A program made the translations under genes and the position numbers. The notes under the pieces were generated by a model that had not been told where the DNA came from, did no database searches, and saw only the letters and a list, made by a program, of their open reading frames with translations. From a bacterium (GTDB lineage: Bacteria; UBP14; UBA6098; JAFGQG01), in the NCBI GenBank assembly GCA_016930435.1, contig JAFGGQ010000010.1, positions 1 through 63,753 on the forward strand: a DNA stretch of 63,753 bases, in the 5' to 3' direction. This document shows, piece after piece, positions 27,006 through 61,169 of the stretch. How positions within the stretch are numbered: position 1 is the stretch's first letter; each line of letters opens with the position of its first letter.

Positions 27006-27827
27006 TTATTTTATTATAACAAGTTTATTATATGTTGTAAAGTTTTCTGACTTTGCGCAGATATAATATATCCCTGAGGGGAGTGCGTGTTCAGAATAAT
27101 CGGATGGTCTCCGGTGAAGGCAGGTTATTCCACTGTCAAGATAACCATCAAAGAGAATGCCCTGGAGTTTGCCCTGAATACTGTAGAGGGATAATACTAA
27201 TTTCCCGGGGCTTGATAAGGTCAACTGTATATTGATCCAGCAGTTAAGGGGATTGGGATAAAGGGAGAGTTCCCATTGCGGGATTATGCTGATGCAGTTA
27301 TCCGGGGGGATACTAACCAGATCGAAATATCTGATTCTGACCTCCTGTGCGGGGAGAAATGGTAATTCTTCAAGGCTATCCATAGGATGCCAGATCTCGA
27401 TAGGCAAACCGGGGTAGTTTGCTCCGATATATGCCTGTGGTTGCAGATCCACCCTTCCCGGGAAGGAATCCGGGTTCCATTGGGCCAGCCGGGGTTCTAT
27501 GGAATCATCGCCGCTGTGCCGTATGGTCCATTCCAGAGAATCGGCATAAGAACTTCGTATATCCCGGCTAAGAAAACTAAGTTCCGGATAAAGGGTGTCA
27601 GTCAAGGTGAAATAGGCATAGAATCCATAGGGAGATGGCCAGGTGGGGATATCGAATTCATCGTCAAAACCATCTGTCGCCATAGGATCAAGTCCCATAA
27701 AAAGATTCAGGTAATCCGTCCTGCCGCCTGAGACCAGTCTAATTTTGCCCACCCACTCCAGGGCATCAAGTGAGACAGCGAATACTACCAATATAACCAG
27801 CAAGATTATCTTAAAGTTGGTCTTCAT
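27006..27827 (-). CDS. Small secreted protein: signal peptide, one TDG/DIR module, sorting domain
   Basis: A 273 aa protein with signal peptide (hydrophobic residues 6-20, likely cut after DA) and one copy of the recurring module at about 23-168. That copy shows ATDGFD, AYF, DIR, QWNP, NYPG and MDS landmarks. A divergent type-A sorting domain begins with SLYPNPLN near 188 and ends with LVIIK. It is the shortest member of the family in this window and defines the minimal architecture. The start was moved from 27914 to 27827 to begin directly at the signal peptide. It lies 28 bp after the patatin gene and is probably co-transcribed. Function unknown. Confidence 0.8.
   Translation of the reverse strand: MKTNFKIILLVILVVFAVSLDALEWVGKIRLVSGGRTDYLNLFMGLDPMATDGFDDEFDIPTWPSPYGFYAYFTLTDTLYPELSFLSRDIRSSYADSLEWTIRHSGDDSIEPRLAQWNPDSFPGRVDLQPQAYIGANYPGLPIEIWHPMDSLEELPFLPAQEVRIRYFDLVSIPPDNCISIIPQWELSLYPNPLNCWINIQLTLSSPGKLVLSLYSIQGKLQGILFDGYLDSGITCLHRRPSDYSEHALPSGIYYICAKSENFTTYNKLVIIK
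27324..27761 (-). repeat. TDG/DIR module, copy 1
   Basis: Protein-level repeat, residues ~23-168 of the 273 aa protein. Landmarks: ATDGFD, YAYF, DIRSS, QWNP, NYPG. Confidence 0.7.
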
Positions 27828-27855
27828 ATTTAATGGAATCCATCTCCAGAGAGGT

Positions 27856-28785
27856 TCAATGTTCAGTGACGGTGCCAACTTGGTTAAAAGTGATAGTCCG
27901 GATGATCTTATCACTTATAAATTTCCGTTTACCGGTCCGGATACTCTTCTTAAGTTCGCTAAGATTATCGTAGAATACTTTCTCACCGGTCAGGATCAGA
28001 GTATCGACGTCGTCAAATGCCGCCCAGCCGATCTGGCCCACGGGAGGCAGAAAAAGAAAATCTGCTTGCTTTATTTGCTCCTCGAACCTCTTCTGAACTG
28101 CTATACGGCTGGCACGTATTATCACCTCCATGGCAGAATTAAACTTTTTGTCCTCCCGGATCTGAGTGGGCAATCCTACAGCGATGACAAAATCGGCTCC
28201 CCGTTCCCTGAGCACAGAGATTGGAACGGGGCTTACCACTCCCCCGTCAATATAATAGCTATCGTCAATCTTGACCGGTGGAAATACTCCCGGTATGGCT
28301 GCACTGGCCAGAATGCCCTTTCTCATATTTCCCTCGCCAAATACTCTTTCCTGGCCATTTTGAGCATTAGAGGTAACCGCATAAAATGGTATCTTGAAAT
28401 CGGTGGGATCCTCGGGAATAACCATATCAATGAAATTTTTTAGAATATAGTTCTGAAGAAGGGAATCACGGGTAAGGGATTTGGTAAATATAATCTTTTC
28501 CTGAAGCCAAATTTTAGCTCCTTCCAGAGAAAAACGTCCCAGACCATTGCCCTTATGCATCAATTTTAGTACTTGATTGACAGTATTATCACTCAGATAC
28601 TTCTTCACCTCGGACTCGATCTCCTGCGGGGTTTTCCCCAAAGCAAACATAGCCCCTAATATTGCACCAACACTGGTCCCCGCAATCATGCTGATTTCTA
28701 TTTCCTCTTTTACCAAACCCTTAAGCACCCCTATATGAGCCAAACCTCTGGCTCCACCGGAACCAAGAACCAGCCCAATTTTCAT
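27856..28785 (-). CDS. Patatin-like phospholipase (RssA/YchK type)
   Basis: A 309 aa cytoplasmic-type patatin. The oxyanion-hole loop GSGGARG is at residues 8-14, the nucleophile Ser38 lies in GTSVG, and the catalytic Asp180 in DGG. This is the Ser-Asp dyad of acyl hydrolases. No signal peptide or beta-barrel domain is attached, unlike PlpD. It has a GGAG ribosome binding site and a good promoter. It is next to secreted proteins, but nothing links their functions. Confidence 0.88.
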   Translation of the reverse strand: MKIGLVLGSGGARGLAHIGVLKGLVKEEIEISMIAGTSVGAILGAMFALGKTPQEIESEVKKYLSDNTVNQVLKLMHKGNGLGRFSLEGAKIWLQEKIIFTKSLTRDSLLQNYILKNFIDMVIPEDPTDFKIPFYAVTSNAQNGQERVFGEGNMRKGILASAAIPGVFPPVKIDDSYYIDGGVVSPVPISVLRERGADFVIAVGLPTQIREDKKFNSAMEVIIRASRIAVQKRFEEQIKQADFLFLPPVGQIGWAAFDDVDTLILTGEKVFYDNLSELKKSIRTGKRKFISDKIIRTITFNQVGTVTEH

Positions 28786-28816
28786 CCTGCTCCACTCCTT
28801 TTAATGGTGTTAATAC

Positions 28817-28844
28817 ATATTAATGAAAATAAAATGAGTGTCAA
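28817..28844 (-). promoter_or_regulatory. Promoter of the patatin gene
   Basis: TTGACA (28839-28844), a 16 bp spacer and TAATAT (28817-28822) on the minus strand, about 30 bp before the ATG at 28785. An AAAGGAG site lies between. Confidence 0.55.
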
Positions 28845-29160
28845 TACTAATATATATATCCGGTGAATATAGAAATACATTAGTAATAAATAGTGCTGAG
28901 AGATTGATAATTCAAATAAACTGTTTTTAAACCTAATCATCAGGTACCTGACGTGGAGTCCGTGAATGAACCGTATTTCAGTTGGGACTTCACCTTAGCT
29001 CATCAACCCGTTTAATGGAACATCTTGAACTGAGCTAAAAGTATTTATGATATAAGTGATTTTACCCGGGTTCGGTTATATCACCTTAATATCCTGGCGG
29101 ATTATAATATCTCCCCGGGCAAACTAAGTATCCTCGCCGGTAGCATCTGAGAATAAAAAC

Positions 29161-29182
29161 CCTTTTTTACCGGGAAAAAAGG
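29161..29182 (-). terminator. Terminator after the 1440 aa secreted protein gene
   Basis: CCTTTTTT (29161-29168) and AAAAAAGG (29175-29182) form an 8 bp stem with a 6 nt loop. On the minus strand it is followed by a run of T. It lies 25 bp after the stop codon. The stem is AT-rich and so only moderately strong. Confidence 0.5.
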
Positions 29183-29206
29183 ATCTAATTTAGCCTTCAG
29201 CTACAG

Positions 29207-32200
29207 CTATTTAAGCATGGTCAGGCGTTTGCTGATTATCTCATTACCGGCTTTCAGGGTATAGAAGTATATGCCTGTAGAGACTTCCCGGCCGGCGGCA
29301 TCAGTACCGTCCCATTCAACTATATAGTGCCCGGCAGGCAAGGATTGCGAAAACAGTACCTTCACCTCTTTGCCCATAATATCGCAAATGGTCAGTTCTG
29401 CCCGTGTATTTTCCTTCAGGCTGAACCCGATATAAGTATTCAGGTTAAAGGGATTGGGATAGTTTTGAGCCAGGTCGTAGTGAGTTGGCAGGGAAGCCAC
29501 ATTCAAGGGTTTAACGCCTTCCAGAACGTTAATGCCGGTCAGGTATTCGAAGATTGTACCCAATGCCATGTATTGAGTATGAGGGAACGGTCCGTCTTCA
29601 ATTGCACCCAGGTAGATAGTAGAGTGTACGGTCCGGTAGTTATCCACCTGGTAAGCTCCCATTCTGCCTGTGGCTGAATCCGGAATGAAGGTGGTATCGA
29701 AAGAGAACATGACCATATCAGCCCCATCGGGTCCGATCTCATCAATGAAGCGATCGGCGATAGTAGCGACCGGATAATCCAATTCCAGGTTATAATCAAA
29801 GAACCAATCCTGTCCTTCCAGCCACTGGACATTTCGGTCCGGGTTACCATCACTGAGGAATTCGACTCCGAACATCTGGTAAAGGTAGCGGGAGATTTGT
29901 GGGGCGTGAGTATCCCGGAAATAGTCATAACCGAAATCGGCGCCTTCCCAGTAAATCCGGCCGCCGGCATGGAGATAAGCAGCTAATTGCCGCAAGCTTT
30001 GCGTATTTATCTTGGTCTGGTCCGAATCGTATATGCCTGTACCCACGAAAACAACCAGATAATCGATAAGCCGATATTCGCTCAGGGACACATCCTGACC
30101 TGTTAACTGGTAAGGCACTTCGAAGGCTTCCAGCATTCGAACGTGTGAAGCCTCAACGCCTTCAGTGCCCCCGGAGCAGAGCCGCGCGCTATTATCGAAA
30201 TCGTAAACCAGAACCAGGGGGTCGGTACTATTAGGCCTTGGATTACCGATAGCCCAGTTGGATAAGTCGCTGTAACCCTCTGCATATTTTGCCCGAACCC
30301 AGTATGTATTAAAATCCCAGTTGTCAACATTGTGATCGATGAAACTGCGCACCCATCCGGGAACATACCCAATGCTGTCCACAGAGAATGTCCCCCGGTA
30401 TATTATATACCCTTCGAGGGTTGCTTCAGAAGATTCGGGAGCATCCCAATACATGGGAACCCTTTTCTCCAAACCATTAATAACCGTCAGGTTAAGGGGT
30501 GGATTCAGGTCTCCGGCATAAGCTATCAAAGTGAAGTCAAGTACCAGATCATCATCGAGGTAGATTATCGTATCCTGTGGAATATATCCTGGTTTGCGGA
30601 GGTATAAGTGATACTCCCCGGGCAAATTATCTAAAAAGCCGTAGTAACCATCCTCGGCAGTAATCACCGAATCAATAAAACCGTCCTCGATTCGGATCAT
30701 CGAACCCTCGAGGGTAGCCGGTTCATCTGATAAGTAGATAGTACCTGTTATATCATAGCGTTGAAAACGGAGGAATATATTCAACACTTCTTCTTCTTCA
30801 TCCAGATAGATGTTCGTATCCAGTGCTTCATATCCTTCCCGCCGGAGGGAGATCAGATAGGTTTGGTGCATTACCAGATTGGTATAGAGGAATTCTCCGA
30901 AAATATTGGTATAAAATGTATCTACTCCATTCATCAATACCATAGTTCCTTCCAGAGGATCTTCGCCCTCCAGTGTAACCAACCCATATATGCTTCCACG
31001 CTGAGCGATCAAGGTGGTATTTACAACTAAATCATCGTTGATGACTGCTATGGTAGTATCATAGGGGAAAAATCCCAGGTGGTAAAAGCTCATAGGATAT
31101 TCACCGGGAACGATGTTATAGAAAATATAGTAACCGTCTTCATTGGTATAAGCAGTATCTCCATTCAGGGTAACCATAGTCCCTTCGTAGTGTTCTTCGG
31201 GGAGTCCATCCAGGACGACCGTTCCGGAGATTGTATAAGCTAATGGGTTCAGCTCGAAATCGTGATACACATCGGAAAGGATGGCGATATTCAGGGAAAC
31301 GGTTTCGTAGCCATTGCGGGAGACGTAGAACTGGTATATTCCGGAGGGGATATCACAGAGTTCGTAAAAACCGGTGGAATCGGTTGTGGCGCTGATCTCC
31401 AGTTCCGGGCAGCTTATGACGCTTCCGTAGAGATCATCGGAGCCATCCGAGAGGTTAACGAATCCTGATAAGCACCATCGGTCGGGCCCGGTCAGCCAGA
31501 AGTGTATTATAGCCCTTCCTATACCCACGAAATCAAGGCTGGAATTACGCCGCATATTCAACCATTCGGAGGGGGGGCTGATAAAATCAGTAAATCCTAT
31601 ATAGAAATTACCTTCCTCGGGGAGTAATTCGGGATACCAGGTCAGCCAGCTATGGGCTTCTTCATCATAGGGGAAATACAGCATATATGCTTCCCAGTAG
31701 AGTGATTCTGCCAGGGAGTAGCGAATGTCCTTCAGGAGGTTGGGGAAATCGGGATCATCGATCACAAAATATGTATATGGATTATCGCCGGGGGGCATTG
31801 GGGGTGAAAGCATATCCAGCCCTGCGTCGAATAGCTCGGTACCCACTTCATCAGCGCCAAAGACCAGTTCAAAGCGTGTGGGCTCGGTGAAGGGATCCGG
31901 GGTTGTCCATACGAACAAGGTGTCCATCCATTCGGGTGCAACAAAGTAGCCGGTAGTGAAGCGCAAGGTGGACGTTGCCCAGTTGGGCGGGGATGCAAGG
32001 TCTAAAACATCCAGCACGACCTCGATAGCGCTGATCTGTGGAAAATCGACTGGCGGATCATAATAAACCCAAATATAATCTTCATATTCTTCGATTATCA
32101 ATGCCGAGGAAACATCCGTGCTGTTCACGTGCATCACTATGCTTTCAAGGTCCACACCGGTTTCGTAGTCGGTTATAAAGACTGATATATTTGCGGATAC

Positions 32201-33529
32201 GGAGATCCCCATAGCGCCATTTTCAGGATTCCAGTTGTAGATCACGGGCGGGTTGGAGTCCACGACAGCCCGGATCGATTTGATCCAGATAACTTCTCCG
32301 ATCAGAACCCCTGTCAGGGAGTTAACAGCGGACATATCGAACCAGGTTTCGGGAATATCTGCGGGATATGCGGAGCCTATCATAAATGTATAACCGGTGG
32401 GCAGCATTTCCGGGTTCCAGTTAACGCCATTATAAGTAAATCCGCTGCCTATGTTAATTTTCCAGTAATCGAGGTTTAAAGCTGAATTATGAATATCCCG
32501 GAAAAGCATTGTAAAATAGGAATATTCCGGATCCGAAATAGGGAAATAAGCGTAAGGCATACCCGGTGGCGGAGGGGGCAAGGGTGTATCAAATCCATAA
32601 TCGAAACCATCAGATGCGGCGGGGTCCCCTCCATAGGAAATGGGGAAGAAAGCAGTATCTGCACCACCCATGGTTGACCAGACGGTTAGCGGCACCTCCC
32701 ATTCGGTAACATAAGAAGGTTCATCCAGGGTTTTGAAGGTAATCGCATGGTCAAGTGTATTAGGAGGATAAGCCAAATCGTTCACCACTACCCTGACTTC
32801 CACCCATGAGTTCAAGGGATAAGGTTCGTCAGGGCTGTAATAAAGGGAATATTCACCGGAACTCTTGGCAATCGAGAGGTCTTCCGTTACTTCCTCCCCT
32901 TCCACGAAGAAGTGCAGACTCTCAATGTTCACTCCGGTCTCATCGTCCATTATAGTAACTGAAATAGGGGTATTGGGGTAATTATCTTCAGAACCGGGGA
33001 GAGGGTCCCATTCGCTTACATAGGGAGGCGAGGTCCCTTCGATACCGTCGGGGCTATATTGGATCTCAAGCATTTGAGCGGGGGCGAACTCAAGTGAACT
33101 AATAGACCTCATATCCTGCCAAACAGTCGGATACTCGCCTGGGTAGAAAACCGCTATTCGGAAATCGCCCCGGGGCAACAAATCTGGATTCCAGTACAAG
33201 ACCTGGGGAGCAACCCCTCTCATTAGCATAACCTGCCATGTATAGAGCTCCTCAGAATCTCCCCGAATATCAGTAGTAAGCATACTGACATAAGGATTCA
33301 TGGGATCTGATATGGGAAAGTATGCATAGGGATTTATAGGAGGAGGAATAGGTAAATTCACATCAAGACCCATATCATAAGAATCGGTAGCATAGGGTGA
33401 GGTTCCCAGGATCAAGGGCAAACTAAGTCCACCGGAAACCGTCTGCAGATCAACTCGCCAAGCTTCGGCAAAAGCCAAAACAGGAAGTAAGAATATTATT
33501 ATGATACAAATAGTTAATTCTTTACGCAT
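29207..33529 (-). CDS. Giant multidomain secreted surface protein, type IX sorting domain
   Basis: A 1440 aa protein with signal peptide 1-21. Three copies of the recurring TDG/DIR module (about 23-160, 275-420, 531-680) alternate with Ig-like domains of the type PPxxxxWxPxxGxxxVxxxxxIxVxIxDxxxGV. Four carboxypeptidase-regulatory-like beta-sandwiches follow (about 686-1005), then an FN3-like domain (1010-1095). A flavodoxin/amidotransferase-like domain (1104-1336) begins with LVYDFDN. The type-A sorting domain (1354-1440) starts with NYPNPFN. Ribosome binding site AGGAGG. It lies 27 bp after the 804 aa relative and is probably co-transcribed. Export by Sec and then a type IX system is an inference; binding or adhesion is a guess. 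Confidence 0.88.
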   Translation of the reverse strand: MRKELTICIIIIFLLPVLAFAEAWRVDLQTVSGGLSLPLILGTSPYATDSYDMGLDVNLPIPPPINPYAYFPISDPMNPYVSMLTTDIRGDSEELYTWQVMLMRGVAPQVLYWNPDLLPRGDFRIAVFYPGEYPTVWQDMRSISSLEFAPAQMLEIQYSPDGIEGTSPPYVSEWDPLPGSEDNYPNTPISVTIMDDETGVNIESLHFFVEGEEVTEDLSIAKSSGEYSLYYSPDEPYPLNSWVEVRVVVNDLAYPPNTLDHAITFKTLDEPSYVTEWEVPLTVWSTMGGADTAFFPISYGGDPAASDGFDYGFDTPLPPPPPGMPYAYFPISDPEYSYFTMLFRDIHNSALNLDYWKINIGSGFTYNGVNWNPEMLPTGYTFMIGSAYPADIPETWFDMSAVNSLTGVLIGEVIWIKSIRAVVDSNPPVIYNWNPENGAMGISVSANISVFITDYETGVDLESIVMHVNSTDVSSALIIEEYEDYIWVYYDPPVDFPQISAIEVVLDVLDLASPPNWATSTLRFTTGYFVAPEWMDTLFVWTTPDPFTEPTRFELVFGADEVGTELFDAGLDMLSPPMPPGDNPYTYFVIDDPDFPNLLKDIRYSLAESLYWEAYMLYFPYDEEAHSWLTWYPELLPEEGNFYIGFTDFISPPSEWLNMRRNSSLDFVGIGRAIIHFWLTGPDRWCLSGFVNLSDGSDDLYGSVISCPELEISATTDSTGFYELCDIPSGIYQFYVSRNGYETVSLNIAILSDVYHDFELNPLAYTISGTVVLDGLPEEHYEGTMVTLNGDTAYTNEDGYYIFYNIVPGEYPMSFYHLGFFPYDTTIAVINDDLVVNTTLIAQRGSIYGLVTLEGEDPLEGTMVLMNGVDTFYTNIFGEFLYTNLVMHQTYLISLRREGYEALDTNIYLDEEEEVLNIFLRFQRYDITGTIYLSDEPATLEGSMIRIEDGFIDSVITAEDGYYGFLDNLPGEYHLYLRKPGYIPQDTIIYLDDDLVLDFTLIAYAGDLNPPLNLTVINGLEKRVPMYWDAPESSEATLEGYIIYRGTFSVDSIGYVPGWVRSFIDHNVDNWDFNTYWVRAKYAEGYSDLSNWAIGNPRPNSTDPLVLVYDFDNSARLCSGGTEGVEASHVRMLEAFEVPYQLTGQDVSLSEYRLIDYLVVFVGTGIYDSDQTKINTQSLRQLAAYLHAGGRIYWEGADFGYDYFRDTHAPQISRYLYQMFGVEFLSDGNPDRNVQWLEGQDWFFDYNLELDYPVATIADRFIDEIGPDGADMVMFSFDTTFIPDSATGRMGAYQVDNYRTVHSTIYLGAIEDGPFPHTQYMALGTIFEYLTGINVLEGVKPLNVASLPTHYDLAQNYPNPFNLNTYIGFSLKENTRAELTICDIMGKEVKVLFSQSLPAGHYIVEWDGTDAAGREVSTGIYFYTLKAGNEIISKRLTMLK
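31490..31939 (-). repeat. TDG/DIR module, copy 4 (third in the 1440 aa protein)
   Basis: Residues ~531-680. The most divergent copy in this protein: the TDG position reads GTELFD, but YTYF, KDIR and LTWYPELLP are kept. Confidence 0.6.
32270..32707 (-). repeat. TDG/DIR module, copy 3 (second in the 1440 aa protein)
   Basis: Residues ~275-420. Landmarks: AASDGFD, AYFPISDP, RDIH, NWNPEMLP, AYPA, WFDMS. Confidence 0.7.
33050..33463 (-). repeat. TDG/DIR module, copy 2 (first in the 1440 aa protein)
   Basis: Residues ~23-160. Landmarks: ATDSYD, AYFPISDP, TTDIRG, YWNPDLLP, FYPG, WQDMRS. Confidence 0.7.
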
Positions 33530-33556: not shown

Positions 33557-35971
33557 TTATTTTATAAAAAGCATATTCTTAATAATGCTCTTGGTTCCAA
33601 ATTGAAGCCTGTAGAAGTATATTCCGGATGGGGAATCGAGCTTTGAAGCATCCCAGTTTAAGCGGTATTCACCAGCTTGCAGCTGCTGATTATCGATAAG
33701 TACATCCATCTCGGTACCCATGACATTATGAATGGTGAAGCGTACTTCTCCGCTTTGAGGCAAGCTAAAGCTAAAAGAGGTAGTAGGGTTAAAGGGATTG
33801 GGATAGTTCTGCTGCAGACCCAATTGCGCCGGGACAGTAGGCTTGTATGAGGTTATCCCTATAGTATAGCAGAAACCGGAATCTGCATTTGAGAATTCAC
33901 TTACACCGTAGTTATAAACCGCATTTACCCGGTAATAGTACCAGGTATCCACTTCGATATCCTCATCAAGGTATTCGGATGCGGATGCCGGATTCTCAGC
34001 GATAAGAGCAGCTTCGGAGGGTTCTTCAAAGTAATGGAGGCAGCGGTAAAGTTCGTAACCCAGTAGCTCCAGTTCCAATGAGGCTTTATCCTCGTATGGC
34101 GACCTCCAGGTTACCCTTATCACCTCTTCCAGGGTATCCGATGCTTCAAGGAATGACGGTGGATCAAAGTGCATTTCTTCAAGTTCGAAATCGATCATTG
34201 TATCAGAAACCAGACCTAAAACCACGGTATCCGGAAAGAATCCCTCATGGCTGGCGATAACAGTGATCTCTTCATTAATAACCTCATCGAACATGTAGTC
34301 GCCATAATAATCGGTAGTATCCATTCCTACACCCAATATCTCCACAATGCTTCCCGATAGATCACCTGTAACTCCCATAAGATATACGTTTCCCCAAACA
34401 CTGCTTGAAGTATCGTCAAGCTCAAACAGATAGAAATTTACGGTAGTATCATCGGTCAGGTTTATAATTGCGGTATCAGGATAATAACCGTCGTGGTAAG
34501 CGATAAGGGTATATTCTCCGAAGAGCACTTCAATGAAGGAGTAAAAACCGGCGATATCGGTGGTATCGACACCCACACCAACCAATTCAACAACTGTACC
34601 CGATAAATCGTCGAATATACCTTCAAGGCCGACAATACCGGTTATATTTGCGGATGTATCCACGATTATACTTTCAAGAGAGAAATTCAGCACGGTATCG
34701 CTGACCAGGATAAAGATCATGGTATCCGGGAGATAGCTATCATGTGATACAATTATCACCTGTGGTCCAAATGGGACATCAATAAAACTGTAATTGCCAT
34801 AATAATCGGTTGTATCGGTATCGAATCCGTATATCTCAACGATGCTATTAGAAAGGTCACCGGATGCACCTTCAAGCAGCACCGTTCCGGAAACATCGCC
34901 CAGTGAATCGATCAGCGGATACAGGGTAACGTTCCAGGTTGTATCTCCGATAATGCTCATGGTCGTTTCCGCGAAATCATATCCATCATGAGCAGCGTGA
35001 ATATTATAAGTCATTTCTTCCAGTCCTGTTACCTCATAGTAACCGCTTGCATTTGTGATTGCGCTTCCGTCTTCGAGCAAAATGACCAGCGAGTTTTCGA
35101 AACTTGCTGCCCCGTCCAGGTAAACATATCCAGAAAGAGTAAACCCGGTGGAGTCCGTAGCGGTTGTGAACGTAATGGTATCGGCCATGTGATTATCATT
35201 AAGGTCATCGGCATTCAAGATAATTGTTATATCAGTATTTGTAGGAAGCTCGATCATTGATGGCAGCGATACATGAAAGCCTCCGGTTATTGGCGTAATA
35301 TTAAGAAGGCTGGGGGGCACAGGCCCTACGCCGGGAACATACATTATAATGGAAGTTTCATCGACTCCGACACCCGCATCGAGCACATCAACATCTATGT
35401 CAGTATCGACCGGGACATCCGTCTCTCCATCATAAGGATTCCAGTTCATAGTATAAGGCGGATCTGTATCCTCGACGGGACCGGAGTAGCGGATCATCGC
35501 ATATTGGGCAGGCAGGAAATTAAATATATTAGTTGTCCTCATATCCGTAGCAGTTTCCCAGTTTATACTTCCTGAAGGGTATGCTGAACCTACCAGAAAC
35601 TCCCCTGTTGATGGGAGCCCGGTATTATCCCAAACCAGGTTAGGATAAGGGATACTTGGAACGCCGCCGCAAATTTCAACCTTCCAATAATTCTCAGGTT
35701 CACCAGCAGCCTGGATATCGGTATAAAGCTTATCAATCAAGGGATTCAGGGGATCATCAAGTTCGAAATAAGCATCCAGTACCATCGGGCAAGGTGGATG
35801 TATAATATCCAAAGGATCATAACCATTCAGGCCCATCGGGTTTACCCCAAAGGTCAGGAAAATAGTGTCTCCCTCGGATACATTCACCCCTAAAGGTAAT
35901 GACCATTGGGGATATGTAACAGAAAACATTAATGTAACTATTAGTCCAGCCCAACACAATTTTTTTAACAT
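33557..35971 (-). CDS. Secreted surface protein with four regulatory-like repeats, type IX sorting domain
   Basis: An 804 aa protein. Signal peptide 1-21 (start placed at 35971 because the signal begins there and a GGAGA site precedes it). One TDG/DIR module lies at about 22-163 and an Ig-like domain at 168-272. Four carboxypeptidase-regulatory-like repeats follow, near 277-590. The second and fourth share near-identical strands (SIVEIxGxxxDTTDYYGxYxF), a sign of recent internal duplication. An FN3-like domain with a PPSFLEASDT start precedes the NYPNPFNPTTSF sorting domain (last ~85 residues, ending NMLFIK). No catalytic motif is visible. It has its own promoter. Confidence 0.87.
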   Translation of the reverse strand: MLKKLCWAGLIVTLMFSVTYPQWSLPLGVNVSEGDTIFLTFGVNPMGLNGYDPLDIIHPPCPMVLDAYFELDDPLNPLIDKLYTDIQAAGEPENYWKVEICGGVPSIPYPNLVWDNTGLPSTGEFLVGSAYPSGSINWETATDMRTTNIFNFLPAQYAMIRYSGPVEDTDPPYTMNWNPYDGETDVPVDTDIDVDVLDAGVGVDETSIIMYVPGVGPVPPSLLNITPITGGFHVSLPSMIELPTNTDITIILNADDLNDNHMADTITFTTATDSTGFTLSGYVYLDGAASFENSLVILLEDGSAITNASGYYEVTGLEEMTYNIHAAHDGYDFAETTMSIIGDTTWNVTLYPLIDSLGDVSGTVLLEGASGDLSNSIVEIYGFDTDTTDYYGNYSFIDVPFGPQVIIVSHDSYLPDTMIFILVSDTVLNFSLESIIVDTSANITGIVGLEGIFDDLSGTVVELVGVGVDTTDIAGFYSFIEVLFGEYTLIAYHDGYYPDTAIINLTDDTTVNFYLFELDDTSSSVWGNVYLMGVTGDLSGSIVEILGVGMDTTDYYGDYMFDEVINEEITVIASHEGFFPDTVVLGLVSDTMIDFELEEMHFDPPSFLEASDTLEEVIRVTWRSPYEDKASLELELLGYELYRCLHYFEEPSEAALIAENPASASEYLDEDIEVDTWYYYRVNAVYNYGVSEFSNADSGFCYTIGITSYKPTVPAQLGLQQNYPNPFNPTTSFSFSLPQSGEVRFTIHNVMGTEMDVLIDNQQLQAGEYRLNWDASKLDSPSGIYFYRLQFGTKSIIKNMLFIK
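35483..35908 (-). repeat. TDG/DIR module, copy 5 (in the 804 aa protein)
   Basis: Residues ~22-163. Landmarks: GLNGYD, DAYFELDDP, YTDIQ, VWDNTGLP, AYPSG, TDMRT. Confidence 0.65.
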
Positions 35972-36016
35972 TATCTCTCCTTTCACAGTTATTATCAATG
36001 GTATTAAATTATATAT

Positions 36017-36152: not shown

Positions 36153-39100
36153 CTATTTCATGAACATCATCTTTACTACTTTGGAATAGGAAGGGGTTTG
36201 AAGCTGGCAGAAATATACTCCGCTTGGGAGGGTTTGCCCGGACATATCCCTTCCATCCCACATCACCGTATAGGTTCCGGCTGCTTTCAGGCCATCAATT
36301 AGAGTAACCATCTTCTCGCCATAGATATTGAAGACAGCGACCTCAACAGCCTCATCGGCAGGCAATCCGAATTGAATAGTGGTAGTGGGATTGAATGGAT
36401 TGGGGTAGTTCTGGTTCATTACGAAGTCAGTTGGAATATTTTCCTTTTCGTAAACATAACTAATCCCAGGTTCTATTCCGAAGAAGTTTAGAATAGCGTC
36501 GTATATTCTGGCAGGGCCAAACGGGGCGGCGACTAATTCCATAGCTCCTGCATAGCAAGCTGACAATACGGTCTGATAGCCATGGGTATAGGCAGCCACG
36601 CGCGCATTTCCGTCCTGATCGTGTAGTATCATGGTAGCGCCATCAGCATCGATCACATCAATGTATCGGTCTGCGAGTGACCCATCGTCATAGTCGGCTA
36701 CTATAAACCTGGGGCCAAAGAATGAACCGCCGACATAGGAGAACAATGAATCGACGTTACCAGTTGTTTCAACATAGCCATCTTCTATGAAAGATACTCC
36801 GAAGTAATCAAAGAAGGCTTGTTCAGTAGCGCTTCCGGATGAATATTCAGCGGCGAAGTCAGGCCCTTCAATATAGATGGGATTCCGCTCATCCAGATAA
36901 TCCATCAGCATATCCAGGCTGCTTTCGGGAATCTTGGTGTCATCGGCATCCTGAATACCAAGGCCGATGAAAATTGCTTCGTAGTCATCCAGAACATACA
37001 TATCCAGAGAGGCATCCTGGTCTGTTATGGTATAGCTTACGTCAAGGTCGTCCAGGTACATTGCCATAGCTTCATCTACACCCATTATTCCGCCAATCGG
37101 GGTAGCGCCATTATCGAAATCATAGATCAACAAGGTATTGGGATCGGGTATAGAGAGTACAGTTCCGCATGCGTATTCCCACACTTCATCACAATAGTCA
37201 TCACCATAAAATGTAACCATAGTAAAGCAATAGCTAACGCCTTCATCGAGGCCATAGACTCCCAGTCCCAGATCTCCCAGTCCGGTTCCGAACGGGATAC
37301 TTCCCAGGTAAGTCCAATCCCAGATATAATCAGAGTAGCCGTCTTCTGGGGCGATAAAGATACCTATGCTATCGCCTACTACCGTGGGCTCATCCCAGAA
37401 GAGGGTGATAAACAGTGTATCATCGATCAATGGACGGGCAAGGGTATCAGCTACTACATAAAGTTCGGGAATAAATGGTATAGCGGGAATAGTGAAGTTA
37501 TAAACAACGTCATCATCAACAGATGTAAGTGTTTCCACAACGGTGTAATAGCAATTAATACTGGCTGAGAGTATATAATCTGCACCACAGGCAAGATCGG
37601 TAAATTCATATTCACCGGTCTCATCGGTAGTAAATGGAACGCTGTTAAGTGTGATCAGAATTCCCGAGAAATCGGATACGCCTTCTAATGAGGCTGTACC
37701 TGATATTGAAACCATACGGGGCTGGAGGTTCAGGTTAACGGTCATGTGGTCCAGGAATTCGATAGTTGTATCGGCATCCAGAAAGCAGTTGTAACTTGCA
37801 GTAATGGTATAATCACCGGCATATACGCATGAATCAACGTAGTGACCGGAGGCATCAGTATAGTATGTTCCGAGGCCAGGGATCATTACCATAATTCCTT
37901 CGGCTGGTGTACCTGCAAGAGTGACCGTACCCTGAAGCATAAAACAGCCTTCAACTATGGTGAAATTAACCCCGCTCATATCACCTATAACTGTAACTTC
38001 ATCTTCCACATCGGGATAACCTATGTGAGAGATAGTAACTGTATAAGTTCCGGCATGAGCGCAATCGAACATATAGCTACCATCGTCAGCGGTTGTAGTT
38101 TCCAGGGTTTGTGTGGGAGATGTAAAGTTGACCACGGATCCACCCCATTCTCCGGAGGGTAATCCTTCAATATCTACAACGCCGGATACCTCGTAGCAGA
38201 AGAGCAGTAGTTCAGTAGTTTCCATGATTATATCTTCATCCAGGTCCACTTCAAAGCACTGGTCATAGTAACCTTCATAATGATAACAAAGGGTATAGTT
38301 AGCAGGATAATTATCAAGGAAGCAATAATCACCTGAGGCATCGGTCATTTCGGTAAGAAGTGTATCGCCTGTTCCGGTAATCATATAAACGTAAATATTT
38401 GAATAATCGGTTGCGTCTTCAAGTGTAACATTGCCGCAGAGGTCATAATAATCTTCTTCATTCCAGACGTGTACCCAAACCTGCTGACCAACTTCGACAT
38501 CGATCATACTTGTGGAGTGCATATCTACCCAAGCCGGTGAATCACCGGGATATACTGCGGCAATACTGAAATGCCAATCCTCTTCAGTAGGAAGCAGGGC
38601 AGTGGGATTCCAGCTAACCCAGTATGAGTTGCCATCGTCGGCGTTTTCCTGTTGGATAAGCCAGGTATGATCCAGCACGCCACGGTTGCGTATATCAGTG
38701 GTAAGATGATCGAACATGCAGCCGGGGTCATCGACGGGGAAGTACACGCAGAGTCCTGAAGGAGGACACAGCGGGAAACCTGCATCGTTAGGGTCACAGC
38801 CAATAGCGCCATTTTCCGCGGTGCCGATAACCAATGAGTAGAGGTTTTCGCCGATACCATCGTCTTCATGGTAAGTTAATGTAGCTGTCCAGATAGGCCC
38901 GGGGCTGACGGAGAAGCAGATCAATGTATCCAATTCGTTAGGCGGGATAGCCTGGTCTAAAGCAATTATCCTCACGCAAACTGTGCTGTAAGGGGGAAAT
39001 GGTTCTCCGGCATGATCATATAATAATGAATATCCGCCGCATTCACCAAGGGTTCCCATGTCAACTTCGCTGGTTACATCAATACCATTAACCATCATCA

Positions 39101-47000: not shown

Positions 47001-49929
47001 TAGCGTGGTTACGGCCGGGAACGAAAACGTCCACCAGCCAGCTTTCGTCTTCACATTCGATCTCGAAATTATCGGGGTGGCAATCGTTGTAAGCGTTATC
47101 CCAAACATAAACGGTAACGCAGATCTTATCACCAGCCCGGAATCTCATGTTGGAGGGGAATCTTCGATACGGATCGAAGGTTACCCTGACGCCCCATTCT
47201 CCTTCAACCTTTTCCAGATCCATCCAGTCATCGCCGGGTCCGGTCCAGATAAAGTTACGGCCTTCCCATGGCCGAGAGGGGTAATCAATATAGCTGGGAT
47301 GCCAGGTGCCATCACAACCCCGAACCTTGATATTCATAACCAGCCGGTCATCGGGATCGCTGCCGGTATAAACACCAGCTACGCAGTTATAAAGGTTAGC
47401 AAAATTGCTGTCCACATTAGGGCAATCCAACTGGTCGTAGATATCCACGGTGATAACCTGGAAGGAATCGCTTGAGACCCATTGTCTGGGCGGATAGAAT
47501 GTAGTATCCGGAGCAGTAGGGCCCTTCAGGTCGATTCTAACGATACCCAGGGTATCCGGGCTGTACTGGGTATAGCCGGGACAGGCCAGGGGGCCGGATT
47601 CCAGGGTAACGTGGTTATCGCGGTCATTGTCGGTTCCATAGTTAGGATCCATACCACCGGTTGCGCACCAGGAATCGGAGGGTACCAAATCGGCACGAGG
47701 GGGTAATACTCCATAATATGATTCGTCGGATTGACCGTAATCAGGATCGTCAAATAATGAAGTCAATATTACATAAACTACATCACCGGATTGTAGTTCC
47801 CAGTCGGAACCGAAATCCGGATCATAGAGGAAGAGCTCTTCGAAGTTGACCCACATGGTTGAGCGGTAGTAACATTCACCGTAGCATTCATCGATATAAA
47901 CGCCGCCGGTGATGATATCGTCCTCATCGACGTAGAGAGTTCTGGAGAAAGTAGATTCACAGCAGGCATAGATATCGAACTGCACTATGAAATCGCGTTT
48001 GTTTATACCGGCACCGTCAACGTGTCCGGTGTAGTATAGTCCATGATTTGTGCGGTCGTGAACGCGGTCGTAATCATCATAGACTTCGATTTCAAGGGTA
48101 GGCAGCGAATCAGCGAGCCAGCGGTAATAAACCAGCTCTCTTTCGATGGTCTCACTACGACGGTTGATACCGGAGAATTCTTCGGTGTCGTTGTCATGGC
48201 CATCGGCTTCGGGGCATATCAATTCGGCATTGGGGCCGGAGAGGTCAACACGGAACTGCCAGGTAGTATCTGCATACCATCCCTCTAAAGTGGAATAAGA
48301 GGACCAGGGCCAGTCGGCGTGAGTAGTCCGGTTCCAGGTATTAATGGTCACCCGAACATTAGCGCCATCGATAAAGCAGTTGAGGAAATCATCAGAATCG
48401 CCAGCCATCTGCATTCCGTTTTCAATCACGAAGGAGTCTGTGCAGCAGTGTTCCAGGTTTGTGCAACCTAATGGATAAACCATACATTCCGGCCATGTTC
48501 CCCAACCTACCGGTTCAGTCCAGTTAGTGGGGGAATTCCAGTATCGGTATTTCCATTCCCATCCTGCACTGGGACCGCTGTTGAATTGATCGTAAGGAAG
48601 GGTTGGTTTATTCCGGAAGTATATCCTGGTTTGCAGCCAGGGGTCGTGATATTCAGGGAAGAGAGGGGGGTTAATATATTCAATAATAACCATAACTGAT
48701 TCCACGCAGGTCTGCACATCTCTGATTTTGAAGGAGATGGGCTGAGTGGAGTCAGCGGTAAAGATCATGTCATCGGGGTCATCTTGACAATCGGTATAAG
48801 GACCGTTGGAGAGTACCACGTTTCTGGGATAAAGTTCCCTGATCTGGGGCTTTAATTTATCCCAACCGATAATTTCTTCGGAGCGTGCCCACCGGCCCCT
48901 GTCGGGATCAGAACCCCAGCCAGGTAGGGTGGTATCGGGAATGTCAAAGTTTCGAAGAATGTAGCAGTCGGTATGGGCATCGGCCATAGAAACGGGAGCC
49001 ACTTCAGCGGGGTTAATTTTATAGACAATAAGGTGTTCTTTGGCAACGATGTTAACGTAAAATGTATCCAGGTTGGACATACCTTCGATAACGTATCCAT
49101 CGGTCATACAAGGGACATTAAACCAAAAGTTGTCTCCGATGTCGATCCGCGAGTGGCAACCTTCCGCTCTCAGGATCATCCAGTATCTCAGGAAGGGTAA
49201 TCCATAAGAGGGAATATCCAGCATGTCGCGGTCCATAAGATAACTTTCGAACAGTATGGTAGCCTGCCACCATTTCCATGTGGGATAAGGGTTCGGAATT
49301 CCAACGGGGGCAGAAACTTCGTACCACTGATCGTCTGCATAGATAGTTGTGCAAATTTCGGTTGCGGGATTGCAGAGGGTTACCATATCACGATAAGCTT
49401 CGGGATGGTCACGAAGGTCAATATCGTCAAAAGTATTGACATTGGAGCCAGCAGCCATTCCCTGCTCTTCGTAAAACTGTAGGCCCATCATGGTATGAAT
49501 GTCCGGACCACCCACGTAAGCGGAATCAGGATACCGAGCCTGGGCCCGGGCACGAGATATCGGAAGCAAGTCGTGGTTAGGATCGAAATCCGGGCTACCG
49601 TAAAGGGTTACAGTAACACCGATCCAGTAGTTATCAGAAGCTGTAGAAAGCAGGTCGAATCTCATGAAAGCAGCATCCGAATCGAGTGGGTTAAAATCGT
49701 CAGTGGGGTCCACATACCGGAGATACCTGGAGCTACGAGGAGCACCCCAGGAATCAACTCTGGAGTAATCCGTTGTGTACCAGCCAGGGATTTCATCTCC
49801 GTACACGGACGGGGAATAGGGAGGCATTAGGTTGAAGGTGTTTGCGTACTGCCAAGTAGCAAACGCACTTGTACCCATTAATACCAGACAAGCCAGAATC
49901 AGCATGGATACAATCGTTTTCTTTCCCAT
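41014..49929 (-). CDS. Very large secreted protein (~2971 aa) with many Ig-like domains and a sorting domain
   Basis: Signal peptide MGKKTIVSMLILACLVLMG, cut near SAFA-TWQY. Most of the length is a chain of beta-rich Ig-like segments marked by strands such as VDLSGPNAEL, IDLKGPTAPDTTF, FIDIHAPVL and LLDTYDPYYV, very rich in Asp, Tyr, Trp and Cys. Near the C-terminus are two GWN strands (CPGWNFISLP and VAGWNLVGSL), then a sorting domain with NHPNPFNATTTI. The shared TDG/DIR module is absent. The start is ambiguous: 49929 (ATG, GAAAGGAG) opens the signal peptide directly. An in-frame TTG at 50010 has an even better AAGGAGG site and would add 27 residues. A structural surface or S-layer-like role is a guess. 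Strong promoters and terminator suggest high expression. Confidence 0.88.
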   Translation of the reverse strand: MGKKTIVSMLILACLVLMGTSAFATWQYANTFNLMPPYSPSVYGDEIPGWYTTDYSRVDSWGAPRSSRYLRYVDPTDDFNPLDSDAAFMRFDLLSTASDNYWIGVTVTLYGSPDFDPNHDLLPISRARAQARYPDSAYVGGPDIHTMMGLQFYEEQGMAAGSNVNTFDDIDLRDHPEAYRDMVTLCNPATEICTTIYADDQWYEVSAPVGIPNPYPTWKWWQATILFESYLMDRDMLDIPSYGLPFLRYWMILRAEGCHSRIDIGDNFWFNVPCMTDGYVIEGMSNLDTFYVNIVAKEHLIVYKINPAEVAPVSMADAHTDCYILRNFDIPDTTLPGWGSDPDRGRWARSEEIIGWDKLKPQIRELYPRNVVLSNGPYTDCQDDPDDMIFTADSTQPISFKIRDVQTCVESVMVIIEYINPPLFPEYHDPWLQTRIYFRNKPTLPYDQFNSGPSAGWEWKYRYWNSPTNWTEPVGWGTWPECMVYPLGCTNLEHCCTDSFVIENGMQMAGDSDDFLNCFIDGANVRVTINTWNRTTHADWPWSSYSTLEGWYADTTWQFRVDLSGPNAELICPEADGHDNDTEEFSGINRRSETIERELVYYRWLADSLPTLEIEVYDDYDRVHDRTNHGLYYTGHVDGAGINKRDFIVQFDIYACCESTFSRTLYVDEDDIITGGVYIDECYGECYYRSTMWVNFEELFLYDPDFGSDWELQSGDVVYVILTSLFDDPDYGQSDESYYGVLPPRADLVPSDSWCATGGMDPNYGTDNDRDNHVTLESGPLACPGYTQYSPDTLGIVRIDLKGPTAPDTTFYPPRQWVSSDSFQVITVDIYDQLDCPNVDSNFANLYNCVAGVYTGSDPDDRLVMNIKVRGCDGTWHPSYIDYPSRPWEGRNFIWTGPGDDWMDLEKVEGEWGVRVTFDPYRRFPSNMRFRAGDKICVTVYVWDNAYNDCHPDNFEIECEDESWLVDVFVPGRNHAIDTRDPDFLYPIQRQVARWSFFIDIHAPVLIDAQPGGPCCDPWYFDLKDISDRVGAIWCDEWVAGVEAADIRLIFLDSLHGGNPYNAVPDTICWTNVTYGSWMLGEHVDREQYRYATLDYGGPLGLDPTREARLSLNCWDSMNTECHFFQPGDVVQVEIWAGDGVNVPWYPATEDPFGYGYRWYHLNDTYANTPTTSWRRDIHNYFIGPDSLLHWDSSCYDYWRHIYMDYVNPNWALVYVDTIQIQGETYIQSVDWFNDEAYTDWAMARPYGYPQDLHGMYDYIYALPYPELEGISMIHSRDDYVDKFAKDLNFMWVAMVTCVDSFILECVEDTFHDTLTERAPFVNLELWDAMGDLVWDYTDYYNCHCSPCFLEYYPDRYRCYDYGYFRIGPLDQMHQWLDSYRDYDTTWIGETMVIDTIIGYQHRDSLVVTLGIHVKTPNQFNTPYTTYKEFRWDYIIDMLPPTGRFATLEGLYGYEEVNCIERHADNNAVRVRLENIRDADVGCSGNTTTPMGWNTVWPLPSVVQGSDWLVYEMGTWANAELMLTYNYGTYYLYTNEHLSIYNCAPEEIPGRHHAVGPITMYTGLEYSVEGTTAVLNTLEEDTIFIADTIHAEAIIQDRLGNQCYLYSPQMILDNGLPEVKGLAFSTYQYEECTYDTTYDSLGGMTIEPSCVVVDEFTDWDPRYCWLPWDPGHAQQDSLIGIYNFGDVCTIYVRLWFDDNMDMRAADASYGYIVRFRPEGWTHWFPVIPIETHAGFYPLSDQYVNYDHGIMAPRMFPDEGLGEMGSVSEEAEAMFLDNGWNTDREWIGYMIIAGDGVMDGVATLRVSGFDDNAANIMTTRDFPFRIETNYYYPDICWPAVDSSDRAHTDPWASPPYDDRLVITGRSGELCVWACDTIDPRNYDISSFNYDIAITDSVVWYLYWHDEEWTEIPASAVSAFHYVIDNPRESCQILPAAVYDVLHQYNTQEKYLTVEFRVYSRFYHEEYLDDILLNVMVDNESPCGQVDFDTIAGGDIPPGIGLTIIPKSTDEVRIVLSGDGVSDVDYVLYYYLDLLTGDHYSIYPEGAHLSSGYCSYVPVGAYPSNPYYDPVNDVIIYDWDWTTNGLTPGLYSIKTRGYDLINNQYGECTSEGDCYMTDYETYYQTFSTVMESVLVPYEVLFARGDDFYDATLSTFGDLYPWDEDMCLPDWPGWVNGELDGIVDAFPYLERFPITTFSNPDYTSGPEDPLLHPYVETGGYPGDSLYVMFMDVGADSIRMIIEDEFGGNISGSNLRIELLFTPDDLVMNPCDEMYYYVYNWIVDDMDNRYDGPVRVTVTLYFWNEFYSEHTITNHVSYILLDTYDPYYVTALARTEVGDPLMDCRHDDLPDEKIWVTNADEIDINVYWHETVFDQEESSEGFVDYDPTGRNWSHLRLTIDGQPNPGFNTDDPNDALETRLWHSRVFDGTLPAMGAWIPPAFFDDISYIYTWTVANDVRGNGLTKIKVKGRDVAGNILDYDEAMSSISEGKWVLVDVTYPVVLDEELIYATEVSFSADAGAIYDNFIDAGFYDPVGGGYVYVDLDTNGVFVQRVWVNEDGSITPVVVGFTDGQTVHMTICDLAGNCIEANVVVAPHLTCCVYEFCPGWNFISLPRMLEDATIEANFPADVDIYSMDASGLFVGPLDRDTELDYRLGYVAFSPDYATVTVCGRCVEEWAIPIVAGWNLVGSLCEPIPFVTPDTDPAGIIEPDNVFWYDACIDAYIQVEELTPCAAHLVLAAAPGTLYVPARGRVVHTIMKSAAVKPLWNSPISIEGKGFAKDLTIGVGEGATEGYDRGADRISLPAMPDRPDVSLDQSLLHSVKAPDNVITWDLNVRGEFNLVANDLPEGYTFFLQRDDQRNDLSTPVAITSGTYKLVAVKAIIPDSYTLAQNHPNPFNATTTISFGLPEDANVTLEVYNVLGDKVVTLLNGEETAGFKTVMWNGRDAADNSVATGIYFYQLKTDKFSSIKKMILMK

Positions 49930-50092
49930 AACGCTACTCTCCTTTCGGTTATAGGTTTTATTTTTTCTCCACAAATTCTCGAGGAAACAAAAGAATCTAA
50001 CACTACCCAACTTAACCTCCTTGTAAGTTAAAACTTATATAATCAACCATTATTTCAATTCCGCGTTTAGATACCATTATTAATATAGCGTC

Positions 50093-55860: not shown

Positions 55861-55928
55861 GAGAAAAATCTATCTGCAAGATCAGCCAGCATCGAAAGCG
55901 TTGGACATCATTAAAATAAGGTGGGATC

Positions 55929-58762: not shown

Positions 58763-58765
58763 TTA

Positions 58766-58793: not shown

Positions 58794-58832
58794 AGATTTT
58801 GAAAATTATTCACTTATATCAGGGAGGCTGTA

Positions 58833-61169
58833 ATGATGTTTAAGTACTTATGTCGGGTTGTAATCCTAACCTTACTATTGTTCTGCACCTCGCTTCTTGG
58901 CCAGTCATTTACCATGAGCATCAATGTATATAACGATGTTGAGGTCAGCGAGGTGATCTTCGGGACATCCCCTGAGGCTACATCCGGTTACGATTTTATG
59001 CTGGACGTTCCCGCCTTCCCCTTGCCATTCTTCTTCGCATATTCTCAGTTATCGGATACTACTTCTCCCCTCTCCCAACTCCAGACCGATATCCGGAATT
59101 CTTTCGATAGCCCGATAATCTGGGAAATTTATACCGGTTACGCGACAGAGGATACCCTGCGCATGGTCTGGAACCCCTCCATGGTGCCCGGTTTTGCAGT
59201 TCTTAAAATAGGCACTCATGCCCCTGGGGATAGCGTCGAACACTACTATCCTATGGACAGCTTCAGTGTTTTTCGTTACCCCGTCGAGAATGTAGTGCAG
59301 GTCTATTACGATGCGGAGGTAGAGCCCAGCGATGATACCATACCCCCTTATGCCCTCAACTGGGTACCCGAAGACGGTGCTACAGGGGTCTCCGGAGAAA
59401 CCTACATTTCGGTGGACATACTGGATGACAGCTCCGGTGTTAACAGCTCTTCTATCACCCTTACCGTTGATCTCCTTCCCATAACCATGTTGGCCTCAAT
59501 TACTCCTATCCCCGGCGGATACAACATAATTTATGAACCCTTCCTTCCCTTTGGAGCGAACGATACTATCAAAGCCAAAGTAACCGCCTGCGATATGGCG
59601 AGCCCCGCCAACTGTATGGCGGACTCTATAATCTTCTACACCGGTACCGGCGATACGACAGGGTTTTACTATACTGTTCAGGGAACGGTTTATTTAGAGG
59701 GAGCTTCCGAGCCGGACCTTCACGGCAGTGAGGTTTCAGCGATGGACCCCTTTGGCGGGGAAACCTTTACCGACACCACCGACGATTTCGGGGCTTATGA
59801 AATCGGTGGACTGACCTCCGGATATAAACTGATAACAGCCCAGCATACCGGATATGCCCTGGCCGGCTCCCTGGTCTCCGTTACCGGCGACAGAATCCTG
59901 AACTTCAACCTTTCAACCAGCGGTATTCCCGGCGAGGTCGGCATCTCCGGGTTCGTTCTCCTCGCCGACGGGTCCACCATACTGGAAGGAAGCATAGTCA
60001 CCGTTGATTCGCTCAACATAGACACTACGAACAGCGAGGGTTATTATTCCATAAGGGGACTCTCATTGGGAATGCATACTATAAATGTAATGAGGTGGGG
60101 TTATCTTCCCCAGGAACAGTCCGTCCTGCTCTTTGCCGATACTACTTTAAATTTTACCCTGGAATGGGATATTCCACCCCAGATCCTGATCTATGATTTT
60201 GATAATGGTGAGAACTCCATTGATGAAGGCACGGTAGGGTGCGAGATCCCCATCGAGGGCTCACTCACCCGTTTGGCGGTTACCTTTTCGGTTACCCCTC
60301 AGGACGCCGACCTTACAGCTTACGATCTCAGTCTTTATGATGCCGTCTTCCTGATTACGGGGCGGCATGGGGGCGCCGGCAGCCCGGTACCCGACAGCAG
60401 CCTCCAGTACCTCCTTGAATTTATGGACGGAGGCAAGAGCCTTTATTGGGAAGGACCCAATGCCGGTCATGACTATTTCGGCTATCCCGGATTGCGCGGC
60501 GACTTTTTCGAACGATTCGGGGTTAACTGGGAAGCTAACGGGCGACCGGCTACTGAAGGAAACATCCGTACCCTCCACGGCACCGGTGAAATCTTTAACC
60601 CGATCTTCGAAGCCGATTATGACTTTCAATCCCTGGCTGACCATTATAATGATGAGCTGACCGCCGCAGAAGCGTTTATGATCCTGGAATCCCAGGAAGA
60701 TGATCCCGAGCCCCTGGACAGCCCTGGACGGGTAGCCGCATACGATCATACCTACAAAACCATAATCTCCACAGCTTACCTGGGTGGCATCAGCGATGCC
60801 CAGGTAAGGGATTCCGTGCTGGCAAAATACCTTGATTTCCTGGGGATCACTTCCGGAATTAAAACTACTCCCGGGATTAAACCCATTGATTACGGTCTCG
60901 GACAGAACTATCCAAATCCCTTCAATGCATTCACACATATACCATTTTACACGGATCCTTCACATTCGGGAAGAAATTGGAAAACAATAAGCGTTAAGAA
61001 TATCCTGGGACAAACCATCCGAACGCTGCCTTTGACAGGGCTTCAGTCCGGGCTCAATTTCATTACCTGGGATGGCCGTGATGATCAGGGCAACACGGTA
61101 CCAGGCGGCCTGTATTTTTATAAAACCGAAGGGGATAAGGAAGTCAAACAGATGATCTTCCTGAAATAA
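58833..61169 (+). CDS. Secreted surface protein of the TDG/DIR family, type IX sorting domain
   Basis: A 778 aa protein. Signal peptide about 1-23 (ILTLLLFCTSLLG). One TDG/DIR module lies at about 26-159, an Ig-like domain at 165-272 (YALNWVPEDGATGVSG), and two regulatory-like domains at about 278-445. A flavodoxin/amidotransferase-like domain begins ILIYDFDNGENS at about 451 and includes SLYWEGPNAGHDYF. The sorting domain has NYPNPFNAFT and ends QMIFLK. It starts with two consecutive ATGs after an AGGGAGG site. It is a paralogue of the 1440 and 1572 aa proteins, placed on the opposite strand and outside their block. Confidence 0.88.
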   Translation: MMFKYLCRVVILTLLLFCTSLLGQSFTMSINVYNDVEVSEVIFGTSPEATSGYDFMLDVPAFPLPFFFAYSQLSDTTSPLSQLQTDIRNSFDSPIIWEIYTGYATEDTLRMVWNPSMVPGFAVLKIGTHAPGDSVEHYYPMDSFSVFRYPVENVVQVYYDAEVEPSDDTIPPYALNWVPEDGATGVSGETYISVDILDDSSGVNSSSITLTVDLLPITMLASITPIPGGYNIIYEPFLPFGANDTIKAKVTACDMASPANCMADSIIFYTGTGDTTGFYYTVQGTVYLEGASEPDLHGSEVSAMDPFGGETFTDTTDDFGAYEIGGLTSGYKLITAQHTGYALAGSLVSVTGDRILNFNLSTSGIPGEVGISGFVLLADGSTILEGSIVTVDSLNIDTTNSEGYYSIRGLSLGMHTINVMRWGYLPQEQSVLLFADTTLNFTLEWDIPPQILIYDFDNGENSIDEGTVGCEIPIEGSLTRLAVTFSVTPQDADLTAYDLSLYDAVFLITGRHGGAGSPVPDSSLQYLLEFMDGGKSLYWEGPNAGHDYFGYPGLRGDFFERFGVNWEANGRPATEGNIRTLHGTGEIFNPIFEADYDFQSLADHYNDELTAAEAFMILESQEDDPEPLDSPGRVAAYDHTYKTIISTAYLGGISDAQVRDSVLAKYLDFLGITSGIKTTPGIKPIDYGLGQNYPNPFNAFTHIPFYTDPSHSGRNWKTISVKNILGQTIRTLPLTGLQSGLNFITWDGRDDQGNTVPGGLYFYKTEGDKEVKQMIFLK
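58908..59309 (+). repeat. TDG/DIR module, copy 9 (in the 778 aa protein)
   Basis: Residues ~26-159. Landmarks: GTSPEATSGYD, FAYSQLSD, QTDIRN, VWNPSMVP, YPMDSFS. Confidence 0.65.

Follow-up and report, generated by a model that had tools for sequence, protein, structure and literature searches.

What is the module that recurs in the secreted proteins of one short stretch of a UBP14 bacterium's genome, and what might it do? The stretch analysed here (63,753 nucleotides, contig JAFGGQ010000010.1 of assembly GCA_016930435.1; hereafter the window) encodes five secreted proteins, A to E, in which a first-pass annotation had marked nine segments of about 145 residues as copies of one domain without a name. 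We find that this is a real, unnamed, and widespread extracellular domain family, a beta-sandwich module of surface proteins and not a new kind of system. We propose that the module is an autonomous extracellular beta-sandwich, displayed at the cell surface, whose acidic core is conserved and whose loops vary, and that it probably serves adhesion or ligand recognition, a reading to which we assign a probability of about 0.55.

Nine repeats in five secreted proteins

The grouping of the nine segments into one domain family withstood a leave-one-out test. Scored with a profile hidden Markov model (HMM) built from the other eight, each copy reached 75-121 bits, with E-values from 1e-21 to 9e-36 at a database size set to 5000, and shuffled controls (200 per copy) never exceeded 9 bits. 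All nine coordinate ranges give a stop-free translation on the expected strand and align end to end over their full length. Proline-rich loops and an acidic composition are common to many secreted proteins, which could let unrelated segments look alike by chance or low complexity; set against the gap between the leave-one-out scores and the shuffles, and against the common fold of the copies in the array model described below, that explanation has a negligible probability, and we reject it as refuted by the leave-one-out test. Judged by their sequences, the nine repeats are a single homologous domain family. Proteins A and B carry three of the listed copies each, and C, D, and E one each. The carriers and their modules, with leave-one-out E-values, are as follows.

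27006-27914, minus strand: open reading frame of protein D; putative signal peptide, module, and type IX secretion system (T9SS) tail; the likely start is an internal ATG
27324-27761, minus strand: module of protein D (stand-alone form), E 1.3e-32
29207-33529, minus strand: protein A, 1440 residues; putative signal peptide, three modules alternating with immunoglobulin (Ig)-like units, CarboxypepD_reg repeats, a 'DFDNGA...GGRVYWEGADFG' region, and T9SS tail
33050-33463, minus strand: module copy 1 of protein A, E 3e-34
32270-32707, minus strand: module copy 2 of protein A, E 1.3e-35; structure predicted (pLDDT 96.3, pTM 0.90)
31490-31939, minus strand: module copy 3 of protein A, E 1e-24
33557-35998, minus strand: protein C; one module, Ig-like unit, and T9SS tail
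35483-35908, minus strand: module of protein C, E 7.1e-25
36153-40871, minus strand: protein B; three modules and T9SS tail
40362-40799, minus strand: module copy 1 of protein B, E 1.5e-28
39237-39665, minus strand: module copy 2 of protein B, E 9e-36
38463-38894, minus strand: module copy 3 of protein B, E 1.1e-21
58833-61169, plus strand: protein E; one module and a T9SS-type/FlgD_ig tail
58908-59309, plus strand: module of protein E, E 2.4e-24

The landmarks by which the copies had been recognized do follow one another in a shared order, but they do not hold as literal motifs: exact TDIR occurs in 4/9 copies and YPG in 3/9, while the D of TDIR is invariant. Residues invariant in all nine copies (numbered on the first row of the alignment) are G20, D34, Y48, D53, L62, D65, W76, W91, P97, and M118; among these are both tryptophans, the glycine in the second strand, the tyrosine of (A/V)YF, the proline of LP, and the methionine of DM. 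Of 178 distinct copies drawn from UBP14, other bacteria, and archaea, D40 is present in 174, D71 in 170, and D36 in 166, with W82 and W97 nearly as constant (numbering of copy 32270-32707; residue frequencies were also computed over 86 members). The loops vary in length and sequence between copies.

Database searches and predicted fold

The annotation could not match the module to a named domain, and the library searches agree. Pfam, NCBIfam, and PDB sequences were all searched with single copies and with 69 members. Neither Pfam nor NCBIfam places a family over the modules in the whole window carrier proteins; the 69 members scanned singly against these two libraries gave scattered single-member matches (best E 0.022), and a 69-member profile gave a best E of 0.18 against PDB sequences. 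Matches to Big_5 (PF13205) fall between the modules and none on them, and a search of the source genome for the PKD_4 family was negative. Among the papers searched, none had the motif strings that were tried or paired type IX secretion with Zixibacteria or Calditrichaeota, and 'UBP14' led only to ubiquitin-protease and other unrelated papers among the matches listed.

Structure prediction for one copy (32270-32707; AlphaFold2 with 69 sequences, mean pLDDT 96.3, pTM 0.90) gave a confident nine-strand beta-sandwich, in which WNP is followed by a short helical turn, and TDGYDxGLD and the proline stretch lie in a long loop. Foldseek returned 0 matches in the PDB at E <= 0.001, and the best VIA-align match among those listed (Z 5.9 over 89 residues, root-mean-square deviation (rmsd) 3.1) lies within the range of unrelated sandwiches. 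As modelled, the fold is predicted with confidence and we found no solved close relative, from which a new fold does not follow. A Foldseek search of BFVD matched the fold to two proteins of viruses, I1ZBD4 and A0A8D9C8P8 (annotated as a 'putative hemin binding protein' in an uncultured marine phage), at probability 1.00 (TMq 0.52-0.54, E 0.006-0.01); neither tblastn against phage genomes nor a pattern search plus tblastn in IMG/VR found relatives by sequence.

A sandwich of this size with conserved aromatic residues could be a strict carbohydrate-binding module (CBM) serving polymer degradation, and CBM86 (6sgf) is among the weak structural neighbours (Z 4.3, rmsd 3.6, 91 residues aligned). 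That Z-score again falls in the unrelated-sandwich range, however, no CBM family in Pfam matches any of the 69 members at E <= 1, and neither the window carriers nor four others scanned contain a glycoside hydrolase or other polysaccharide-degrading domain. We regard this specialized role as decidedly unlikely.

The first-pass annotation also held that the copies are separated by Ig-like domains, and weak Big_5 matches together with an array model bear this out. A model of mature protein A up to residue 748, built with 12 sequences (pLDDT 86, pTM 0.31), has three modules with the same strand order that alternate with seven-strand Ig-like units; how they are oriented relative to one another is not fixed in the model. 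The modelled copies, copy 2 alone and copies 1-3 in the array, all come from protein A and share one strand order. Foldseek matches to the five-domain array were cadherin, titin, and other strings of beta-sandwiches at TM-scores of 0.1-0.25, which we take as generic. The units between and after the modules are the following.

32708-33049, minus strand: Ig-like unit of protein A, between copies 1 and 2; modelled with seven strands in the array
31940-32269, minus strand: Ig-like unit of protein A, between copies 2 and 3; matched by Big_5 PF13205 below the curated cut-off (residues 424-526, E 0.0033); also in the array model
35162-35470, minus strand: Ig-like unit that follows the module in protein C; Big_5-like, with PF13205 at E 0.063, below the curated cut-off
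30527-31468, minus strand: CarboxypepD_reg-like repeats of protein A; PF13620 E 1.7e-23, four stretches

Distribution, position, and stand-alone forms

In the candidate phylum UBP14 the family is universal among the genomes sampled (17/17, with 11-39 copies each), and one to three weak matches occur in 4/24 non-UBP14 genomes sampled alongside. In a second phylum, to which genome G040 belongs, 18/58 genomes gave matches. Clear members stand at named loci in Calditrichota, Ignavibacteria, Latescibacterota, Fermentibacteria, and a metagenome-assembled genome (MAG) of Methanocorpusculaceae, and an alignment search with full-length protein A found relatives that include 'bacterium UBP14_UBA6098' and MAGs labelled Zixibacteria. 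Contamination of the one archaeal MAG is unlikely, because 5/61 genomes of its order carry the module and do so in methanogen-style proteins. These archaeal carriers are rich in PKD domains, and several have the module followed by a GWN pair (described below) as in UBP14. It is conceivable that the module, often paired with GWN repeats, has been exchanged between FCB-group bacteria and methanogenic archaea of shared anoxic habitats and acts as a common system of surface contact between such partners, for instance in syntrophic aggregation; we consider this scenario very unlikely.

Copy number proved stable where the annotation had asked whether it varies: among UBP14 genomes in which the three-copy protein was found complete, nearly all have it with all three copies. 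Orthologues of protein A in other UBP14 families have three copies at near-identical spacing, and one orthologue cut by a contig end shows two. In a tree of 69 modules, the first copies of protein A form one group (support 95/89), the third copies fall together (98/99, with one long-branch intruder), and the second copies cluster with weak support. Given a layout that is kept and copies that group by position, the triplication is most likely older than the radiation of the UBP14 lineages sampled, with copy number kept since. Gene order is conserved as well, in that the cluster of B, C, A, and a 2998-residue protein is syntenic in genome G001 of the same family, where the orthologue of the latter is 66% identical over the part fetched; D is there too. 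The gene for protein D lies between that for a putative patatin-like phospholipase and genes whose order is also kept in G001 (23406-28785 of the window, minus strand).

The statement that the module is always N-terminal is true only of the nine listed copies. A further copy in the window directly precedes a T9SS tail:

41335-41646, minus strand: tenth, degenerate module copy, in the 2998-residue protein (41014-50010), directly before the T9SS tail

Its N-terminal third scores E 3.5e-5 with a profile that excludes both this copy and its orthologue, a search in which reversed sequences gave nothing better than E 20; the whole copy scores E 1.6e-12 with a profile that includes it. The 2998-residue secreted protein (minus strand), besides its T9SS tail, has a GWN-like repeat near residue 2713. 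The source genome (G000, 2.85 Mb, 180 contigs) has about 30 family members, and most of those outside the window lie towards the C-terminus of proteins that are about 900-2900 residues long. Two 'GWNLISFP...GWNLIG' repeats follow these copies directly, in some cases with a second module and a T9SS tail after them. Such pairs of 'GWNLISFPV ... GWNLIG' repeats, about 75 residues each, follow the module in UBP14 proteins (loci L135, L137, L139, L140, and others) and in archaeal ones (L089, L161, L162, L166), and a scan of three UBP14 proteins found no Pfam family over them. Partner domains are diverse and include VWA, IgGFc_binding, cohesin-like, Ig-like, and PKD-like domains.

All five window carriers end in a T9SS-type tail, and signal-peptide-like N-termini directly precede the module (signal peptides and anchors were read by eye from the sequence). 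Most carriers in UBP14 as a whole likewise have T9SS tails. The tails are listed below; that of protein E scores 17.4 against a TIGR04183 cut-off of 23, with A, B, C, and D above it.

27015-27263, minus strand: T9SS type A C-terminal sorting domain of protein D; PF18962 E 3.7e-6 and TIGR04183 E 3.3e-6, both over cut-off
29222-29461, minus strand: T9SS type A tail of protein A; TIGR04183 E 1.6e-8, over cut-off
33575-33805, minus strand: T9SS type A tail of protein C; TIGR04183 E 9.5e-8
36165-36407, minus strand: T9SS type A tail of protein B; TIGR04183 E 5.9e-8
60909-61151, plus strand: T9SS-type/FlgD_ig tail of protein E; above cut-off with PF13860 (E 4.5e-9), below it with TIGR04183 (E 0.0033)

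Before the tail, proteins A (about residues 1100-1310), B, and E share a 'DFDNGA...TGxD...GGRxYWEGADFGYDY' region that is conserved across UBP14 and has no Pfam match in these three proteins. Elsewhere in the same genome, contig C77 encodes a homologue of SprA (TIGR04189 over cut-off, 646 bits summed over its frame). A module-bearing protein is encoded immediately upstream of this gene for the T9SS translocon (C77, 1233-8526).

Could the module itself be an accessory of this export route, aiding tail recognition, export, or anchoring? The tails of all five window carriers are compatible with this, as are several copies in the source genome, the tenth included, that adjoin a tail. Against it, the distance from a window copy to the tail reaches about 1400 residues, no tail is recognized in several carriers, and there are archaeal carriers that have a hydrophobic C-terminal segment instead. 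A part in T9SS is unlikely because the module is present in archaeal proteins without T9SS tails; we hold the idea to be highly improbable and reject an export device on the evidence of the archaeal copies.

Small proteins narrow the question further. In UBP14 there are proteins of about 250-310 residues made up of one module set between a signal-peptide-like N-terminus and a T9SS tail; the source genome has two (protein D and L148), G001 two, and the form also occurs in G002, G009, G011, G049, and G051. Beyond UBP14, L081 of Calditrichota and L083 of an Ignavibacteria MAG have the same form. Archaeal counterparts (L161, 217-999, minus strand; L163, 1414-2202, plus strand) have a putative signal peptide followed by the module, a Pro/Thr-rich stalk, and, at the C-terminus, a hydrophobic segment that is apparently a membrane anchor. 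Because the module alone can be the whole cargo, a linker role is unlikely, as the first-pass annotation had supposed. From their domain composition, the stand-alone forms point to an autonomous displayed domain that is neither a linker nor a T9SS device.

Proposed role and relation to known systems

We propose that bacterial carriers would cross the inner membrane by Sec and the outer membrane via the T9SS translocon, the C-terminal tail then fixing the protein at the surface, as established T9SS biology would suggest. The module arrays of A and B would lie farthest from the cell, at the membrane-distal end of a flexible rod. A near-invariant core (D36, D40, D71, R73, W82, W97, and M125 in the modelled copy) would hold the fold, perhaps around a Ca2+ ion or through an Asp-Arg salt-bridge network at TDGYDxGLD and TDIR. 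Conservation of these residues regardless of position and partner suggests a structural core. Contacts would then be made by the variable loops, namely the proline-rich loop, the 'YPG' loop, and the hairpins, and the ligand could be a partner protein or else sugars, either from the matrix or from neighbouring cells. The module may thus be used as a general display scaffold, like Ig and FN3 domains. Of the original suggestion, a recognition or matrix unit rather than a linker, the exclusion of a linker stands on the stand-alone cargo, and the recognition or matrix role is one that we infer.

Several observations weigh against the proposed display and recognition role. The conserved residues look structural and give no hint of a ligand. 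Five carriers in the source genome (L136, L137, L139, L140, and L143) end after the GWN repeats with no recognizable T9SS tail, so that not every carrier is shown to be surface-anchored. The low pTM of the array may reflect its shallow alignment of 12 sequences. A passive structural spacer, adding length or rigidity and making no specific contact, would account for the variable position and per-protein copy number, the alternation with Ig-like units, the combination with many unrelated domains, and conserved residues that resemble core residues. It has difficulty with stand-alone proteins in which the module is the sole cargo domain, and with a three-copy layout that is kept across the phylum while each position diverges separately. 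On balance we judge a mere spacer unlikely and favour an autonomous displayed domain that makes contacts of its own.

The family is absent from current Pfam and NCBIfam libraries, yet it is universal and heavily amplified in the 17 sampled UBP14 genomes and scattered through other FCB phyla and methanogens; its occurrence in both Bacteria and Archaea is of interest in itself. With a named model in place, dozens of large surface proteins now called hypothetical would be annotated in each genome. Thanks to the small stand-alone forms (about 250-300 residues), function is directly testable with one purified domain, and a confident model with no significant PDB match makes the module a good target for a first experimental structure.

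Among known systems, the best structural neighbours are Hikeshi (3ww0, 3wvz) and iridovirus ORF158L (3rj2), which share a common strand arrangement with the module (Z 5.6-5.9, rmsd 3.1 over 89 residues). They differ in being intracellular or viral proteins of other function, at 8-9% identity and below the Foldseek threshold given above. CBM86 is similar in size and general sandwich architecture, but it is 8% identical and linked by no CBM profile. Like T9SS type A cargo (TIGR04183/PF18962), the window carriers end in a sorting tail and their genome encodes SprA; the tail, however, is a domain separate from the module, which archaeal proteins carry without it. In general use the module resembles Big_5 (PF13205) and FN3-type modules, which are likewise extracellular beta-sandwiches of about 100-150 residues, found in tandem and with many partners in secreted multi-domain proteins, and Big_5-like units alternate with it here. 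By sequence, 0/69 module members match Big_5 or other Ig families, and unlike the Big_5 units the module has nine strands, a long proline-rich loop, and an invariant DxxxD...DIR core.

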